A stretch of DNA of 9,135 bases, taken from assembly GCA_030616165.1 (NCBI GenBank), contig JAUWXV010000153.1, positions 1 to 9,135 on the forward strand, in the 5' to 3' direction. The translations under genes and the position numbers were made by a program. Shown piece by piece: positions 1,102-9,135 of this stretch (position 1 is its first letter; every line of letters starts with the position of its first letter). Below the pieces are notes generated by a model. That model ran no database searches, was not told where the DNA came from, and was given only the letters and a program-made list of their open reading frames with translations. The stretch is from a bacterium (GTDB lineage Bacteria; SM23-31; JAUVVT01).

Positions 1102-1178
1102 GACAGAAAGCTGTTCTGTCCCTACATAATAATCATTTGTAATTGAATATATTGTAGGGACAGGACATTGTCCTGTCC
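1102..1178. repeat. REP-like doublet (REPIN-type nested palindrome) with GTAG feet
   Basis: Two hairpins face each other. The right one reads GTAG (1154-1157), then GGACAGGACA (1158-1167), one base, then TGTCCTGTCC (1169-1178), a perfect 10-bp stem. The left one, read on the - strand, has GTAG (complement of 1122-1125), one or two G, then a 7-bp stem GACAGAA/TTCTGTC around a 5-base loop (1102-1120). The two outer heads, CTGTCCCTACA (1116-1126) and TGTAGGGACAG (1153-1163), pair perfectly over 11 bp across a 26-base loop. A GTAG foot beside a hairpin, in inverted pairs, is the known layout of REP/REPIN elements mobilised by RAYT (TnpA-REP, Y1 HUH) transposases. No such transposase is in the window. 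Confidence 0.65.
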
Positions 1179-1278
1179 TTCTGTGCTAAAGTAAAAGTTG
1201 ATTTTATTTCGTTTATTACTTCTCAATTTCAAAAAATGTCAGGAAAATATATATCATTTATTATTTAATAAGGCACTA
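1135..1278 (+). repeat. Inverted repeat arm, left copy (144 bp)
   Basis: The reverse complement of 8992-9135 matches this stretch at 138 of 144 positions without gaps; mismatches are at 1185, 1222, 1225, 1230, 1253 and 1276. The first 50 bases, including the GGACAGGACA palindrome, are identical. The inner end (TTAATAAGGCA) stops 10 bp before the rhaT start codon, so the repeat forms most of the rhaT leader. The match could extend outward beyond the right edge of the window. Confidence 0.92.
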
Positions 1279-1288
1279 AGAATATTAT

Positions 1289-2338
1289 ATGAATCCTTTT
1301 TTAGGTGTCTTCTTGCATACTATAGGCGGTTTTGCGGCTGGGAGTTTTTACATTCCGTTCAAGAAGGTTAGGAACTGGGCATGGGAGAGTTACTGGCTTG
1401 TGGGCGGTTTTTTTTCTTGGATTATTGTGCCGTGGATAGTGGCATACCTGACGGTGCCCGATCTTATAACTGTTTTGAGAGGTGCACCTGTAAGCAGTCT
1501 TGGCGCATGTTATTTATTTGGTGTATTGTGGGGTGTCGGTGGGCTCACATTCGGCTTGTCGATGCGTTATCTTGGGATGTCTCTTGGATATGCTTTTACA
1601 CTTGGATACTGTGCAGCCTTCGGCACTATTATACCGCCAATATATTTTAGGACGTTTAACGAGTTAATCAGCAGCGCATCCGGTATGGTTACGCTCGGTG
1701 GCGTTCTTGTGTGCCTTGCAGGCATTGCCGTATGCGGTTGGGCGGGCGTATCAAAGGAACGGGAGCTTTCGGATGCTCAAAAGAAAGAGACTATCAAGGA
1801 GTTTAATTTCAAGAAGGGCGTTTGGATTGCATTATTATGTGGTATTATGAGTGCGTGCTTTGCGTTCGGGATTGCAGCGGGGAAACCAATCGCCGAACGA
1901 GCGGTGTCTCTTGGCACGATGCCTATTTGGATGAATAGCCCAGTTTTTGTCGTTATACTTCTTGGTGGGTTTACAACAAATTTCATCTGGTGCATGATTC
2001 TGAATGTAAGAAACCATTCCTTGAATAATTACCTTGAGAGTGGCGACGCATCGCTTTTCATTAACTATTTATTCTCCGCGCTTTCAGGAACCATCTGGTA
2101 TTTCCAGTTTATGTTTTATGGAATGGGTACCACTAAAATGGGAAAGTATAATTTCTCAAGCTGGAGCATCCATATGGCTTTCATCATTGTTTTCAGCAAT
2201 ATTTGGGGGCTGATCTTTCGGGAATGGAAAGGTTCAAGGGTCCTTACACTCCGTATTATTATTTCAGGAATACTTGTGCTTATCATGTCAACAATTGTCA
2301 TTGGTCTGGGAAACTACCTTGCATCATTTGGAAAGTGA
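1289..2338 (+). CDS. rhaT: RhaT-family L-rhamnose/H+ symporter
   Basis: The 349-residue product is an integral inner-membrane protein with about ten hydrophobic segments. It matches E. coli RhaT (344 residues; drug/metabolite transporter superfamily) throughout. Recognised signatures are YIPFKKV (21-27) with the following WAWE and GGFFSWIIVPW (39-49), MRYLGMSLG (92-100), a cytoplasmic loop EFNFKKGVW after the fourth or fifth segment, and WYFQFMFYGMG in the second half. RhaT imports L-rhamnose, and in E. coli also L-lyxose and mannose, with a proton. The ATG at 1289 puts the N-terminus level with E. coli RhaT. Its ribosome site is weak: an AAGG at 1270-1273, 15 bp upstream and inside the repeated element. 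The gene ends in TGA. Sugar specificity is inferred from the family; a related deoxy-sugar or an oligosaccharide is possible. Confidence 0.9.
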   Translation: MNPFLGVFLHTIGGFAAGSFYIPFKKVRNWAWESYWLVGGFFSWIIVPWIVAYLTVPDLITVLRGAPVSSLGACYLFGVLWGVGGLTFGLSMRYLGMSLGYAFTLGYCAAFGTIIPPIYFRTFNELISSASGMVTLGGVLVCLAGIAVCGWAGVSKERELSDAQKKETIKEFNFKKGVWIALLCGIMSACFAFGIAAGKPIAERAVSLGTMPIWMNSPVFVVILLGGFTTNFIWCMILNVRNHSLNNYLESGDASLFINYLFSALSGTIWYFQFMFYGMGTTKMGKYNFSSWSIHMAFIIVFSNIWGLIFREWKGSRVLTLRIIISGILVLIMSTIVIGLGNYLASFGK

Positions 2339-2528
2339 GAAAGAGAGAAATATAATCACAGGGATGCAGAGAAAGAAATGTTTTCGTGAAAATCTCTGTA
2401 CTAACTTATGCTAATGTAAATGAAATAAATTTACCAATATTTTGTGGGGTCTAACAAGATTTGTACTTACTATAATAAACGAGTATGGTGTGAACAGTTA
2501 AATACGCAGATTTCATGTTTTACCGATG

Positions 2529-2534
2529 AGGAGG
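2529..2534 (+). promoter_or_regulatory. Strong Shine-Dalgarno AGGAGG for the URO-D-like gene
   Basis: A full AGGAGG lies 10 bases before the ATG at 2545. It supports that start over the in-frame ATG at 2563 (MTPRERV), although the conserved family sequence only begins there. Confidence 0.75.
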
Positions 2535-2544
2535 AAATACAATT

Positions 2545-3714
2545 ATGGGACATAAAGAGACGATGACGCCGCGGGAGCGTGTGTTAAAAGCTCTCAATCA
2601 TGAAATCCCTGACCGTGTACCCATTGACCTTGGGGGATTTCAAACAGGCATTCATCAAAGAGCATATGAAAATCTGCTTGTATTTCTGGGAATCGAGGAT
2701 AATATAACCATTCTTGATCCCGTCCAGCAGCTCGCAGTACCGTGCGAGGACATTCTTCAGCGATTCAGGGTTGACACTCGTTATATATGCGCACATGGAC
2801 CTGACAGTTTCAAGGGCACCATAGAAAAGAATATCCGGGACGGTAGGCTCTGGCATGATTTAAAGGATGAATTTGGTGTTATATGGTCAATGCCTGATGA
2901 CCAGCGGCTGTATATGGATATATCCCACCATCCTCTCAGGGATGCTACGATTGAAGATATCGCTGATTATCCATTCCCGGAAGGTAACGATCCGACCCGC
3001 TTCACAGATGTTCGGGAACATGCTCTGAAAATGCGTCATGAAACACCTTATGCTCTTTGTACATGCATCGGGGGTGTTGTATATGAGATCTGTTGGTATA
3101 TGAGAGGACTTGAGCAGTGGTTTGTCGATATGATAACACAACCTGCGTTCTGCGAAGCGCTGCTTGACAGTATGCTCAGGTTCTGGATGGATTTTTATGC
3201 TGGATTTATGGCGGAAGTGGGCGATCTTATTGACGTTGTAATGGTTGGTGATGACCTGGCAGGGCAAAGTGGTCCACTCTTTTCCCCGACATTTTACCGT
3301 AAGATAGTTAAACCGCGGCAGAAGATACTTATTCAGCATATCAAATCATTGACGGATGCGAAAATCTGGTATCATACCTGCGGCTCGTGCTATGAATATA
3401 TTAACGATTTTATTGACAATGGGGTGGATATTCTTAATCCGGTTCAGATTGGCATCATCAATATGGAACCGCAGAAACTCAAAAACGAATTCGGCGGCAG
3501 GATTGTTTTCTGGGGCGGTGGTATCGACGCCCAGCACATTCTGCCATTTGCGGAACCGACGGAAATTAAGAAACACGTGCGAAAGAATCTTGAACACTTT
3601 AAACCGGGAGGAGGATATGTCTTCAATTGTGTTCATAATATTCAGTATGGAATTCCTCCGGAGAATATTGTCGCAATGTTTGATACGGCGTATGAATTCG
3701 GATTTTATGAATGA
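2545..3714 (+). CDS. URO-D superfamily protein, MtaA/CmuA-like methyltransferase type
   Basis: The 389-residue product is probably cytoplasmic; no signal peptide or membrane segment is seen. The N-terminus MTPRERVLKALNHEIPDR (7-24) is typical of URO-D superfamily proteins of unassigned function. The Arg-rich substrate motif of true HemE (MRQAGRY type) is absent, so haem synthesis is unlikely. Visible features are GDDLAG (235-240), YHTCGSC with His277 and Cys279, ILNPVQ (296-301), FWGGGID (322-328), Cys362 in FNCVHN, and PPENIVAMFDTAYE near the end. His-x-Cys plus a distant Cys is the zinc-site pattern of the MtaA/MtbA/CmuA corrinoid-methyl transferases, which move a methyl group between a corrinoid and a thiol. 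Activity here is inference; such genes occur often beside sulfatases and sugar genes with no proven role. It sits 206 bp after rhaT and ends in TGA. Confidence 0.82.
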   Translation: MGHKETMTPRERVLKALNHEIPDRVPIDLGGFQTGIHQRAYENLLVFLGIEDNITILDPVQQLAVPCEDILQRFRVDTRYICAHGPDSFKGTIEKNIRDGRLWHDLKDEFGVIWSMPDDQRLYMDISHHPLRDATIEDIADYPFPEGNDPTRFTDVREHALKMRHETPYALCTCIGGVVYEICWYMRGLEQWFVDMITQPAFCEALLDSMLRFWMDFYAGFMAEVGDLIDVVMVGDDLAGQSGPLFSPTFYRKIVKPRQKILIQHIKSLTDAKIWYHTCGSCYEYINDFIDNGVDILNPVQIGIINMEPQKLKNEFGGRIVFWGGGIDAQHILPFAEPTEIKKHVRKNLEHFKPGGGYVFNCVHNIQYGIPPENIVAMFDTAYEFGFYE

Positions 3715-3778
3715 AACTGCATAAGTGTTTTTATTGTCAAAATAGCATCAAGTTTCCTGATTGGTTGAAAAAAGTATT

Positions 3779-3792
3779 TGAAATATATTTCA
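3779..3792. promoter_or_regulatory. Perfect 14-bp palindrome TGAAATATATTTCA, possible operator
   Basis: The site is fully self-complementary and lies in the 227-bp spacer before the sulfatase gene. A partial copy (TGAAATATATTT) occurs at 8907-8918 after the last gene. AT-rich palindromes can arise by chance in such spacers, and no regulator is encoded nearby. Confidence 0.25.
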
Positions 3793-3935
3793 TATAGTAT
3801 GAATGTTTTAATATTTCTCTACTGTCGGATTTTTAGTGAAGAACTTGATTTTCGGTTTACAGATTATTATATTTAATAGAAAATATTTCATTGACAGTGT
3901 AAAATAAATATTTTTGAAACATTAAAATAGTTACT

Positions 3936-3940
3936 GGGAG
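3936..3940 (+). promoter_or_regulatory. Shine-Dalgarno GGGAG that decides the sulfatase start
   Basis: Two in-frame ATGs occur, at 3942 and 3948. GGGAG is only 1 base from the first but 7 bases from the second, so the ATG at 3948 is the better start. The two choices differ by two residues before the Tat signal. Confidence 0.55.
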
Positions 3941-3947
3941 AATGACT

Positions 3948-4922
3948 ATGGAATATCAAAAAGATCCGGTAAAATTAAGTCGCCGGCAATTTATTAGAAA
4001 GACAGGAATGGCAGGAGCGTTCATATCGGTTGCAGGAACGTTGAGTTCTTGTGTTCAGAAAGACAAATCTTCTAGGAGACCAAATGTCATCTTTCTTCTA
4101 ACCGATGACCAGCGTTGGGATGCAGTGGGGTGTATGGGGAATCCAATCATCCAGACTCCTAATATGGATCGACTGGCTGAAAAGGGAGTATTGTTTGAAA
4201 GTAATTTTGTTACAACTTCTATTTGTGCTGCAAGTCGTGCCAGCATCTTTGCCGGGCAATATACACGCCGTCATGGAGTTATCGATTTTAAAACCGACTT
4301 TTCCCCCTCTGCCCTGAGACAAACGTATCCACTTCTAATGCGCAGGGCGGGTTACCGCATTGGCTTTATCGGCAAATGGGGAGTGGGGAATAACTTACCC
4401 GAAAAGGAATTTGATTACTTTAAAGGATTTCCGGGGCAGGGCAGATATTTTCATGAGGAAAATGGTAAGCAGGTTCATTTAACCAGCATCATGGGCAGGC
4501 AAGCCATCGAGTTTCTGAATGGCAGTTCGGAAAATCAGCCATTTTGTCTTTCCGTAAGCTTCAAAGCACCGCATGTCCAGGATAATGATCCCAGGCAATT
4601 CCTTTACGATCCAACTTACGAAAACCTTTACAAGAACGTAACCATCCCGGTTCCCAAGACTGCACATCCGCGTTACTTTGAGTCGCTTCCGGAATATATC
4701 CGCAATTCGGAAGCACGGAGAAGGTGGAAGATTCGCTTTAGCACACCGGAAAAATTTCAGGAATCAGTTAAAGGATACTACCGACTCATTTACGGCGTTG
4801 ATGTGGTGTTGGGTAGAATCATGGCTGCCTTGAAAGAACTAAAGTTCGAAGATAATACAATCATCATTTTGACCGGGGACAATGGATTCTATCTCGGTGA
4901 ACATGGACTGGCTGGCAAGTAG
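3948..4922 (+). pseudogene. Type I sulfatase, N-terminal part up to an in-frame TAG
   Basis: This is 324 codons of an arylsulfatase-family (S1) enzyme that hydrolyses sulfate esters, here probably on a polysaccharide. Numbering is from the ATG at 3948. A twin-arginine motif SRRQFIRK (11-18) is followed by a hydrophobic stretch and LSSC (Cys35), so Tat export and lipid anchoring are predicted. Asp53-Asp54 (LLTDDQRWD) are calcium ligands. The maturation site is CAASR (93-97): Cys93 would become formylglycine, and Ala replaces the common Pro at the third place. GKWG lies in the middle, and GDNG (310-313) carries the second metal-ligand pair. The frame stops at GLAGK plus TAG, just before the conserved FMHEES. 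Without the remaining third the fold should be incomplete. It is a nonsense mutant, a sequence error or a read-through codon; the rest of the frame is intact in the next entry. Confidence 0.85.
4920..4922 (+). other. In-frame amber codon replacing the conserved sulfatase Trp
   Basis: The codons around it read Gly-Lys-TAG-Phe-Met-His-Glu-Glu-Ser. Related sulfatases have Lys-Trp-Phe-Met or Lys-Trp-Phe-Tyr here, so a single TGG to TAG change explains it. The other visible gene ends use TAA (931, 5366, 8803) or TGA (2338, 3714); none uses TAG, but five stops are too few to infer a recoded TAG. Confidence 0.85.
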
Positions 4923-4925
4923 TTT

Positions 4926-5366
4926 ATGCATGAAGAGTCGATTCGAACCCCATTAATTGTTTATGACCACAGATTGCCGGTATCTTTACGAGGCAAGCGG
5001 AGGCAGGAAATTGTGTTAAACATTGACTTGGCGCCAACCATTCTTGACCTTGTTGGATTGGATATTCCAGCACCTGTGCAGGGACGCACTCTCCGGGGAT
5101 TGATCTATGGCAAAGAAGAGCCATGGAGAAACGACTTTTTCTACGAACACCTTTTCGAACATCCCACAATTCCAAAATCTGAAGGAGTTCGTAATGAACG
5201 GTGGAAGTACGTTCGATATATTGACCAGCATCCGACTCATGAAGAGCTGTATGATTTGGAAAATGACCCACATGAAGAACGTGATATTGCAATGATAAAG
5301 GGTAACAGTGAAGTTCTCAATTCCCTGCGTAAGCGATGGCGTGAACTCCGGGATAACTTGCGATAA
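4926..5366 (+). pseudogene. Type I sulfatase, C-terminal part after the in-frame TAG
   Basis: This part is in the same frame as the upstream half; only TAG and one Phe codon lie between them. It encodes the sulfatase C-terminal subdomain: MHEESIRTPLIVYD, then IDLAPTILDLVGLDIP and GRTLRGLI, then the closing strand region with RNERWKYVRYI and EELYDLENDPHEERD, a standard family ending. Together the halves span 472 codons, a normal length for this family. The ATG at 4926 has no good ribosome site in front of it, and the fragment lacks the formylglycine site and the metal ligands, so independent function is unlikely. The frame carries no further stops or frameshifts, so the damage is either recent, an error in the sequence, or bypassed by read-through. 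It ends in TAA. Confidence 0.85.
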
Positions 5367-5695
5367 AAAATATTACAATTGTCTCTAAATCTAAAAAATA
5401 CCGCAATATCAGACATTGGATTTGGATAGAAGTACACTGAAAAGGCCGCTTAATTTTGTCTTGACTTTTAGGGTGCAGTAAAGTAACTTTATTTTGATAT
5501 TAATTTTTCACTGGTTTGACTGTTATAATTACCATTATAGCATATAAATAATTTTACCTCTGGAAAATATTCAATTAAACATATATGGACATTTACTATT
5601 ATTTGTGATGAAAGTTTTTTATCCATTCTCTGCTCTTCGTTCAAATGACAACTAAAAATTTTAATAACAATTTTTTAACATAGGAGGAAGTAATT
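5367..5695. other. AT-rich spacer between sulfatase and GH106-like gene
   Basis: No coding potential or RNA gene is recognised. It holds two TTGACT hexamers (5461-5466 and 5516-5521) without a convincing -10 partner at normal distance, and a 13-bp near-perfect palindrome TAAAGTAACTTTA (5479-5491). The only clear signal is the ribosome site at 5682-5687. The spacer presumably contains the promoter of the large gene. Confidence 0.5.
5682..5687 (+). promoter_or_regulatory. Strong Shine-Dalgarno AGGAGG for the GH106-like gene
   Basis: AGGAGG lies 8 bases before the ATG at 5696, the ideal distance. The start is also supported by the signal peptide that follows it directly. Confidence 0.8.
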
Positions 5696-8600
5696 ATGCA
5701 ATCAAAGTATTTCTCATTTATAATTACAAGTTTCATTTTGATAGCATTTTTTCAGATGCTTTCTTGTTCGAGAGAAAAATCATTGGAAATCAATTCCTTT
5801 CAAGAGATAAAAGAATATTTCGGTAATCCGCCAGCGGAATTTCGGAGTGTTCCGTTTTGGGTGTGGAATGATGAAGTAACAGAAGAGAAGATTGAGGAAC
5901 AGTTAACCGAATTACACTCTCAGGGAATTGGTGGTGTATTTATTCATGCACGCTATGGTTTAATCACGCCTTATCTTTCGGATAGATGGTTTTCTCTATA
6001 CCAATTTGCTTTTGACAAGTTAAAAGAGTTGGGGATGAAAATGTGGATTTACGATGAAGATGGTTATCCGAGCGGTTTTGCCGGTGGGTATGTCCACGCA
6101 GAAATGCCAGAAGCCCCCGGGAAAATATTGGTGTTTCGCCGCTACGATGTTCTCCCGGCAGATATAAAGGGTGAGGTATTAGTTGTTTTAAAAAAGGATG
6201 GTTCAGATTTCGTCGATATCACCAATCGGCTGGATGATGAAAAGTCAAAAAGTGGAGAGTATTATATCTATGAATTAATTGATAATCCTTCATCAAAGTC
6301 TGTCGATTTAATACTTGATGGTGTTACTGAAAAATTTTTAGAGATTACGGTAGAAAGGGGATATAAAAAATACTTTGAGCATGAGTTTGGAAAAATGATA
6401 CCGGGGATTTTTCAGGATGAAGCCAATATCCGACCTCGTGGCAGAAACTCTTTAAAATGGACACCGACTATGTTTTCGGAATTCCAAAAAAAATGGGGGT
6501 ATGATTTGAAACTCCATCTACCCTCTCTTTTTGAAGAAGTCGGTGATTGGAAAAAAATACGGCATAATTATTATTCCATTTTATTAGATATTTTTATTGA
6601 ACGTTGGGGCAAGGTATACTATCAGTATTGTGAGGAGAACAATTTAAAGTTTACCGGTCACTACTGGGAGCATTCTTGGCCCTCTCCCTCGAATGGTCCC
6701 GACAATATGGCGATGTATGCATGGGCTCAGATGCCCGGTATAGATATTCTCTTTAATGAGTATGGAGAAGACACCGGGGCACAATTCGGTAATGTCCGTT
6801 CTGTGAAGGAAGCAAGCAGTGTTGCCAATCAGATGGGCTTTTCACGCATATTAAGCGAAACGTATGGCGGGAGTGGATGGGGATTGCGGTTTGAGGATAT
6901 GAAACGCATAGGCGATTGGGAATATGCTTTGGGTGTTAATTTTATGAATGAACATCTTATTCATATGACGCTTAAAGGTAAACGAAAACAAGATTGGCCG
7001 CAGTCATTTATTCATAGTCCATATTGGAAATTTTACCGCACTTTAGCAGATTATTTCGGTCGCCTCTCTATGGTGCTTTCTTCGGGAGAAGAAATAAATA
7101 AGATTTTAGTCATTGAACCAACAACATCGGGCTGGATGTATTATTCTCCGACAAATCCGAATAAAAATATTCGATACCTCGGAGATGCGTTCCAGGAATT
7201 TATAACGAAATTGTCAAAACTTCAAGTCGGGTATGACCTCGGATGTGAGAACATAATCAAGGATATCGGAAAAATTGAAAATGGTAAATTTGTCGTGGGG
7301 GAAAGGGCTTATGAGATTCTTATTCTTCCTCCGGGTCTCGAAAACCTGGACTCTTCAATAGTTCCTCTGGTCGAAAAATACCTTCAGGAAGGTGGTAAAG
7401 TTATTTCATTTGTGGAGACACCGAAATATATCGATGGTTCAGAATCAGATAAAATCGGCTTACTTGCTTCAAAATACGGCGCAAATTGGCTGAAATTAGA
7501 CCAATTGAATGAGCAGGTCGCATCCGATTTACTTACTCCGGAAGACTTTCAAGTGTTAAATCCAGAAAACATCACCGGTATATTGTATCATCTCCGCCGG
7601 CAATTAGAGGATGGTGAGTTCTTGTTCCTGGTAAATACCAGCCTTGAAGAAAATGCTGCCGGCAGGGTAAAGGTCAAAGGGCAATCTGTTTTAGAATTAA
7701 ATGCATTGAATGGTGATATTGCTCCATATCCTGCAGCAATTGAAGGTGGTTCGGTAACTATAGACTTTGATTTGCCGCCGGTTGGCAGCCTATTATTATT
7801 TATTAGTCCATCCTCTTCAACGACTTCACCTATTCCAGAAGACACTACTCCAGGAACAATTCTTACACCAACCGGCAATTTGCAAATTCAGATGATATCA
7901 CCGAACACACTTACCCTCGATTATTGTGATATAAAACTTGATGGAAAAGTAGAAAAAGGTTTGTATTATAGTGCTGCGCAGTCAAGAATCTTTCAGCACC
8001 ACGGCTTGAAGAGAAATCCATGGTACCAGAGTTATCAATATAAGACAGATATTATCGATAAGGATAAATTCCCTGCAGATTCGGGGTTTGAAGCAACTTT
8101 TTCTTTCCAGATAGATGAGGGGGTAGATAAAGCCTCTCTTCAGGCAGTAGTGGAACAAACGAATATTTTCCAGGTCTCGGTTAATGGCAATTCAGTTGAA
8201 CCACGACCTGATGAATGGTGGTTGGATTACTCTTTCGGAATTTTTGACATAGGCAAGTATGTAGTCACTGGAACCAATCGGATTACATTACGGGTTTCTC
8301 CTTTCACTCTTCATGCTGAATTGGAGCGCATATATATCCTTGGTAACTTTGGTTTGAGTCCACAGGCGATAGGCTGGAAGATAGTGCCATCTTCACAAAT
8401 ATCTATCGGTGAATGGCATAAACAAGATATTCCCTTTTACTCTGACGGTGTAGCATACAGCAAAACATATAATCTATCATCTGTGGATAAGAAATATATT
8501 ATAAAATTAGGTGCATGGCTTGGAACTACTGTAGAGGTGCAGGTTAATAAAGAGCATGCTGGACTCATCGCATGGCCTCCATATAGTTTAGATATTTCAG

Positions 8601-8803
8601 ATAAGGTAAGGAATGGCGAAAATGAGATTTCAGTTATTGTTTATGGGTCATTGAAAAATTTACTGGGACCGCATCACAATCCAATCCGTGGTAGGACACC
8701 GCCTAATAGTTGGGATAGGGCTCCTGAAAGACAGCCAGGCGGAGAAAAATATGATTTTATAGGGTATGGCTTGTTCGAGGATTTCTCGGTGATTGAAAAG
8801 TAA
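5696..8803 (+). CDS. Large GH106-like glycoside hydrolase, putative alpha-L-rhamnosidase lipoprotein
   Basis: The 1035-residue product begins with a signal peptide (residues 4-23 hydrophobic) and MLSC with Cys24, a slightly non-standard lipobox. Residues 45-460 look like the GH106-type barrel: PFWVWNDE (53-60), IGGVFIHARYGLITPY (78-93), WIYDEDGYPSGFAGG (117-131), FQDEANIRP with Asp241-Glu242, SETYGGSGWG with Glu388, then a LIHMTLKGKRK and SPYW stretch. Glu242 and Glu388 are candidate catalytic or metal residues by position only. Residues 466-575 resemble a GATase-like domain (NKILVIEP, ILPPGLENLDS, YLQEGGKVISF). A beta-sandwich ends near 702, then a Ser/Thr/Pro-rich linker (703-727). The last 307 residues are two jelly-roll-like modules, the second GH2-like (WPPYSLDISDKV), duplicated in the upstream gene. 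GH106 enzymes remove terminal L-rhamnose, which fits the nearby rhaT. Membership is by motif recognition; another glycosidase activity is possible. Confidence 0.72.
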   Translation: MQSKYFSFIITSFILIAFFQMLSCSREKSLEINSFQEIKEYFGNPPAEFRSVPFWVWNDEVTEEKIEEQLTELHSQGIGGVFIHARYGLITPYLSDRWFSLYQFAFDKLKELGMKMWIYDEDGYPSGFAGGYVHAEMPEAPGKILVFRRYDVLPADIKGEVLVVLKKDGSDFVDITNRLDDEKSKSGEYYIYELIDNPSSKSVDLILDGVTEKFLEITVERGYKKYFEHEFGKMIPGIFQDEANIRPRGRNSLKWTPTMFSEFQKKWGYDLKLHLPSLFEEVGDWKKIRHNYYSILLDIFIERWGKVYYQYCEENNLKFTGHYWEHSWPSPSNGPDNMAMYAWAQMPGIDILFNEYGEDTGAQFGNVRSVKEASSVANQMGFSRILSETYGGSGWGLRFEDMKRIGDWEYALGVNFMNEHLIHMTLKGKRKQDWPQSFIHSPYWKFYRTLADYFGRLSMVLSSGEEINKILVIEPTTSGWMYYSPTNPNKNIRYLGDAFQEFITKLSKLQVGYDLGCENIIKDIGKIENGKFVVGERAYEILILPPGLENLDSSIVPLVEKYLQEGGKVISFVETPKYIDGSESDKIGLLASKYGANWLKLDQLNEQVASDLLTPEDFQVLNPENITGILYHLRRQLEDGEFLFLVNTSLEENAAGRVKVKGQSVLELNALNGDIAPYPAAIEGGSVTIDFDLPPVGSLLLFISPSSSTTSPIPEDTTPGTILTPTGNLQIQMISPNTLTLDYCDIKLDGKVEKGLYYSAAQSRIFQHHGLKRNPWYQSYQYKTDIIDKDKFPADSGFEATFSFQIDEGVDKASLQAVVEQTNIFQVSVNGNSVEPRPDEWWLDYSFGIFDIGKYVVTGTNRITLRVSPFTLHAELERIYILGNFGLSPQAIGWKIVPSSQISIGEWHKQDIPFYSDGVAYSKTYNLSSVDKKYIIKLGAWLGTTVEVQVNKEHAGLIAWPPYSLDISDKVRNGENEISVIVYGSLKNLLGPHHNPIRGRTPPNSWDRAPERQPGGEKYDFIGYGLFEDFSVIEK
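7880..8800 (+). repeat. Direct repeat copy 2: duplicated C-terminal module
   Basis: This stretch is homologous to 5-928 without indels, with about 49 amino-acid differences in 307. In this copy the module follows a low-complexity Ser/Thr/Pro linker encoded at about 7802-7876, the kind of boundary across which modules are exchanged. Confidence 0.9.
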
Positions 8804-8816
8804 TTACTGTAAATTT

Positions 8817-8842
8817 CAACCTTCCGACCAAAGCGAAGGTTG
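8817..8842 (+). terminator. Stem-loop after the GH106-like gene, weak terminator candidate
   Basis: CAACCTTC (8817-8824) pairs perfectly with GAAGGTTG (8835-8842) around a 10-base loop. No T-run follows (TCAGGCAC), so it is not a standard intrinsic terminator; it could protect the 3' end of the message. Confidence 0.3.
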
Positions 8843-8991
8843 TCAGGCACAGCAGATATGTTACATTTCAGATGGCAGAAGTTGCGATAAGCAAGAGGAA
8901 ATCTACTGAAATATATTTTCTGACCAAACGATTACATTATTGTCCGGTTTAACGCAACACTTTCAGATATGAATCAGTGGGCAATCGTATC

Positions 8992-9135
8992 TAATGCCTT
9001 ATTAAATAATAAATGACATATATTTTCCTGACATTTTTTAAAATGGAAAAGTAATAAACGAAATAAAATCAACTTTTACTTTAGAACAGAAGGACAGGAC
9101 AATGTCCTGTCCCTACAATATATTCAATTACAAAT
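8992..9135 (-). repeat. Inverted repeat arm, right copy (144 bp, reaches window edge)
   Basis: This is the reverse complement of 1135-1278 with six mismatches. It contains the REP palindrome GGACAGGACA/TGTCCTGTCC (9092-9112) and CTAC (9113-9116), which is the GTAG foot on the - strand. The window ends inside what would be the loop of a REP doublet, so the partner hairpin is expected just beyond the edge. Confidence 0.92.

Follow-up and report, generated by a model that had tools for sequence, protein, structure and literature searches.

The bacterial elements Nezha and NEMIS are linked to parents of the IS630 type. Both are named as bacterial MITEs (PMC3733652). For the IS630-family element ISY100, insertion occurs almost exclusively at TA, which is duplicated (PMC2170065), and a paper cited in PMC2170065, Tenzen and Ohtsubo 1991, names a CTAG preference in its title. 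The repeat described here has much in common with bacterial IS630 and Tc1/mariner MITEs: it is short and non-coding, with matching terminal inverted repeats, the ends of an IS630-type parent, a preference for TA or CTAG, and dispersed intergenic copies. It differs from them in end sequence and host, in the inverted pair of GTAG REP hairpins that it carries, and in that its parent transposase was not found in the host assembly. With REPs and REPINs of the GTAG type (PMC3733652), it shares the GTAG tag beside a palindromic stem, the inverted pairing, and the occurrence of the hairpins elsewhere in the genome; what sets it apart is that a MITE with IS630 ends encloses the pair, and that no RAYT flanked by the same hairpin was found.

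The window analyzed is one whole contig, C54 (9135 bp), from a draft genome that comprises 343 contigs and 3.74 Mb, is ~90% complete and is broken at repeats. Profile matches confirm the four genes that the first-pass annotation placed between two copies of the repeat, all on the + strand: rhaT, encoding an L-rhamnose-proton symporter (1289–2338; Pfam PF06379, E 4.7e-77); directly after it, a gene of the URO-D superfamily (2545–3714; PF01208), an adjacency also present in a relative of the same family (G001); a sulfatase reading frame (3942–5366; PF00884 and PF16347 in its two halves); and a GH106-like alpha-L-rhamnosidase (5696–8803; PF17132, E 6.8e-21). That description needs amending in two respects. 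The sulfatase frame is interrupted by a TAG at 4921–4923, and the C-terminal part of a second GH106-type gene (2–931, + strand), 84% identical to the GH106 C-terminus, lies just outside the repeat pair. The TAG is probably a nonsense mutation or a sequencing or assembly error; recoding was rejected, as TAG is an ordinary stop that ends 11 of 68 sampled long frames.

Structure of the repeat and its parent insertion sequence

The sequences at 1135–1278 and 8992–9135 are inverted matches of one another, identical at 138 of 144 positions, as previously noted. This is far beyond chance, and dozens of strong matches to the same sequence are present in the genome. The match is real, but 144 bp is not a unit, only a fragment of a longer element: it consists of the right half of the left copy (1008–1276) plus a flanking TA, and the right arm ends at 9135 because the contig ends there. 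Unlike the truncated right-hand copy, other copies in the genome run on past the 144-bp extent. We are highly confident that the repeat is a dispersed, non-coding IS630-type MITE, that is, a shrunken IS630-type insertion sequence (IS).

Copy 1 is complete (269 bp; 1008–1276, + strand), as defined by its termini and the alignment of complete copies of a genome-wide family, and runs from an A-type end on the left to a T-type end on the right. Its left terminal inverted repeat, GTGCCATGTTAAATAA (1008–1023, + strand), matches the end pattern exactly and is the counterpart of the parent 3′ end, with 47 bp of homology to an IS630 3′ end. Its right terminal inverted repeat, GTGCCTTATTAAATAA (1261–1276, − strand), corresponds to the parent 5′ end on the basis of a pattern match, the alignment of copies, and comparison with the IS. 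In copy 1, the frame of the ancestral transposase would have run along the − strand, starting at the T-type end. The TA at 1277–1278 lies outside the right terminal inverted repeat and is the flank of copy 1. Copy 2 (8994–9135, − strand) is in the opposite orientation, is flanked by a TA at 8992–8993, and is represented by its T-type half only, cut by the contig end within the hairpin region. The 12 complete copies that were aligned span 238–338 bp and have 16-bp terminal inverted repeats (GTGCCATGTTAAATAA / GTGCCTTATTAAATAA) with GTGCC(A/T)T(G/A)TTAAATAA-type termini; the family is thus short, non-coding, bounded by terminal inverted repeats and present in many copies, as expected of an IS630-family MITE. 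A search of Rfam yielded no family at the gathering threshold.

The end of copy 1 (1276) is 12 bp upstream of the rhaT ATG (1289). Upstream of the rhaT orthologue in G001, the sequence CCGGAGGTGCTATATG has a clear ribosome-binding site; the corresponding sequence in the window, GGCACTAAGAATATTATATG, has no obvious one. From this comparison of sequences, it is possible that the MITE affects expression of rhaT by reducing its translation.

The type of the parent is identified as an IS630-family IS like that on contig NGFL01000007 of a candidate division TA06 MAG. When the species-genome collection was scanned for exact matches to GTGCCNNNNTAAATAATAAATGA, five stretches were found. On NGFL01000007 (L182:4105-5269), GTGCCNNNNTAAATAATAAATGA starts an IS of 1165 bp that ends in TTATTTAACAAGGCAC and whose reading frames match the IS630 transposase NF033545 and the DDE_3 domain, so the MITE ends are shared with an IS that has an IS630 transposase. 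Homology extends inward from both ends: the consensus T-end of the MITE aligns over 42 bp with the 5′ end of the IS (score 62 versus a shuffled maximum of 31) and the consensus A-end over 47 bp with its 3′ end (score 59 versus a shuffled maximum of 31). Reading out through the A-type end, the MITE encodes KLQKRTYVI-stop versus KLQKTTYVI-stop in the IS, and the last transposase codons are therefore common to both. What differs is the interior, where a transposase gene, split into two frames, takes the place of the REP-bearing core. A decayed second relative is present in an Atribacteria MAG (L180), and a T-type end is present in G001 with a different hairpin. Exact-pattern matches in Rickettsia and in a Bacteroidota MAG lack a second end in the vicinity and look like chance.

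Searches with DDE_3 and with the NGFL01000007 transposase found no IS630 transposase in this genome, as represented by its ~90% complete assembly broken at repeats, or in its five closest relatives. A transposase of this kind in the host would be required for the MITE to be active now, but not for it to have been derived from an IS. Two other candidate sources were rejected. The search of the genome itself for DDE_Tnp_1 (IS4/IS5-type) yielded one fragment, whose contig has no matching terminus among those listed. Five matches to GTGCCATGTTTTATAA, considered as candidates for an autonomous copy, proved to be a repeated membrane-protein-like gene that resembles the MITE end pattern by chance. 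This gene (~330 aa) is repeated on contigs C26, C44, C67, C222, and C239 of G000, and its copies have ~84–90% DNA identity.

The NGFL01000007 IS sits in the context CTA|IS|TAG and interrupts a putative MFS-like transporter gene, named by reading of the sequence. Removing the IS and one TA restores the interrupted frame, indicating that this type of IS duplicates TA in a CTAG context, in agreement with IS630-family behavior as published for ISY100. Among the 12 complete MITE copies, TA is found at 15 of 24 flanks, and the remainder are TG or CA, with one AG. Agreement between the two flanks of a copy was no better than in permutations, and flank comparison thus demonstrated no target-site duplication for the MITE copies. 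Target duplications of 2 to 11 bp were likewise considered with the boundaries shifted, and rejected: apparent 4-bp CTAG/CTAA duplications are seen in three copies, which is no excess (3 exact pairs, permutation p 0.48).

A REP hairpin pair inside the element

The first-pass annotation held that the match was more than a bare REP, and this is correct: the REP hairpin pair is real and lies inside the IS630-type MITE. The palindrome at 1102–1178 (+ strand; fold z-score −4.46) consists of two inverted hairpins that bear the tag of GTAG REPs (PMC3733652), with GTAG beside a palindromic stem in GTAGGGACAGGACATTGTCCTGTCC and in its inverted partner (…CTAC spacer GTAGGGACAGGACATTGTCCTGTCC). Nine examined loci outside MITEs, seven in this genome and two in G001, have similarity to the hairpin region with no full MITE. 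Since the same hairpin type occurs outside the MITE, we infer that the MITE probably took in the REP pair first and amplified afterwards. Such a nested arrangement is mildly unusual.

An insert of ~13–15 bp (TGCCTGCACACTGTG) is found in either hairpin of different MITE copies (C134, C208, C284, C87, and others). It is duplicated in some copies and inverted in C284, a pattern that suggests template switching within the palindrome.

Of the seven Y1_Tnp matches in the genome, some have hairpins of the GTAGGGGC type nearby. None of the seven loci carries a hairpin of the GTAGGGACAG type, and a cognate RAYT flanked by the same REP was thus not found among them. One Y1_Tnp gene lies amid several GTAGGGGC-type hairpins (L083; G000:C268:5500-9500), likely a RAYT/REP locus of another REP family.

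The captured pair raises the question of whether the repeat is best regarded as a hybrid, an IS630-type MITE in which the REPs hitch-hike, spread by a DDE transposase while possibly still being a RAYT substrate. We regard this as unlikely. If true, one unit would have two unrelated mobilization routes, and one such copy would have displaced the ribosome-binding region of rhaT.

Two insertions around a gene cluster

Two origins had been proposed for the inverted pair, namely two insertions of one element or the ends of a mobilized cassette. The former is borne out, the element being the IS630-type MITE that contains the REP hairpin pair. Under the latter, the two copies would bound a composite transposon or cassette, with rhaT, the URO-D gene, the sulfatase, and the GH106 gene moved as one block. 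The copies are indeed inverted and enclose no further copy, and reports of both an IS630-associated composite transposon and a MITE-like composite are cited in PMC2170065 and PMC3189936. But the distribution of the element, the relationship between the two copies, and the organization of the genes in a relative all argue against a moving block, which is not supported and which we consider very improbable.

The element is dispersed. A search with 1090–1290 and an end-sequence search found ~47 copies or fragments in the 3.74-Mb draft genome; the tally covers the matches listed from query 1090–1290 and end sequence GTGCCWTRTTAAATAA, and is hand-compiled with some ends approximate. None of 15 copies checked is inside a long reading frame. 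Dozens of copies adjoin unrelated genes, including those for NusB, PhoH, AcrB, HlyD, Nramp, a radical SAM protein, an amidase, PcrB, UDG, POR, an ABC transporter, an oxidoreductase, a 3-keto-disaccharide hydrolase, and sulfatases. The element therefore occupies many unrelated spacers with random gene content, the very situation in which, according to the first-pass annotation, the flanking would be a coincidence. Because the element is dispersed ~47 times through the draft genome, the flanking of these sugar-degradation genes by two copies is most likely a coincidence.

The neatness of the flanking is also partly an effect of assembly because contigs here tend to break within MITE copies: 30 of the 47 copies are within 50 bp of a contig end, compared with ~5.5% expected per copy. 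Contig C122 (C122:3765-5921, L073) covers residues 1–709 of a GH106 paralogue, and residues 729–1035 of one stand at the start of C54, so the two contigs probably adjoin, with C122 on the left and an assembly gap dividing a single GH106 paralogue; no sequence overlap between C122 and C54 was found. C122 has two further MITE copies, around two sulfatases. Counting the pair in C54, four or more copies thus lie in the region, and the pair is nothing special, which speaks against a cassette.

The two copies in the window are not each other's closest relatives. Copy 2 is closest to a copy on C17 (98.6%) and to a partial copy on C13 (116/116), versus 95.8% for copy 1. Copies 1 and 2 belong to different subgroups and are independent insertions. 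We looked for relatives without exactly the block between the repeats and found none. In G001, rhaT (82% identical) is followed ~70 bp later by the URO-D gene (85%) with no MITE before rhaT, and no MITE follows the GH106 orthologue (74%); contigs of G001 are short and were compared by gene edge. Hence, the rhaT–URO-D pair and a GH106 orthologue exist in a relative with no element at the start of rhaT or at the end of GH106.

A further and very improbable reading, in which the whole repeat is a REP or REPIN moved by a RAYT (a Y1 tyrosine transposase) with the 100-bp tail as a passenger, would fit the inverted GTAG-type hairpins inside the element, those outside it, and the seven Y1_Tnp matches, some of them near GTAGGGGC-type hairpins, but is largely refuted by a conserved unit whose two precise IS630-type ends lie well outside the hairpins and by the absence of the GTAGGGACAG hairpin type from every Y1 locus examined.

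Proposed origin and spread of the element

The copies are, with little doubt, independent insertions of a MITE derived from an IS630-type IS and spread in trans, with no support for a moving block. The MITE, a non-autonomous element of the IS630 family (Tc1/mariner-type) of 238–338 bp with a GTAG-type REP hairpin pair inside, would have arisen by internal deletion of a ~1.2-kb IS630-type IS that left both ends and the last transposase codons. Its copies are then predicted to have spread by cut-and-paste transposition, presumably using transposase provided in trans from a related IS that the assembly no longer shows, and to have targeted intergenic TA sites, with CTAG preferred. Two such independent insertions happen to lie on either side of the rhaT–URO-D–sulfatase–GH106 genes.

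What appeared to be the boundary of a gene cassette is thus explained by an ordinary dispersed element combined with an assembly effect, and the same trap will recur wherever repeats terminate the contigs of draft genomes. The element also shows REP hairpins carried by an unrelated transposon, and it clearly exemplifies a MITE that can be traced to its type of parent IS as far as the final codons of the transposase.
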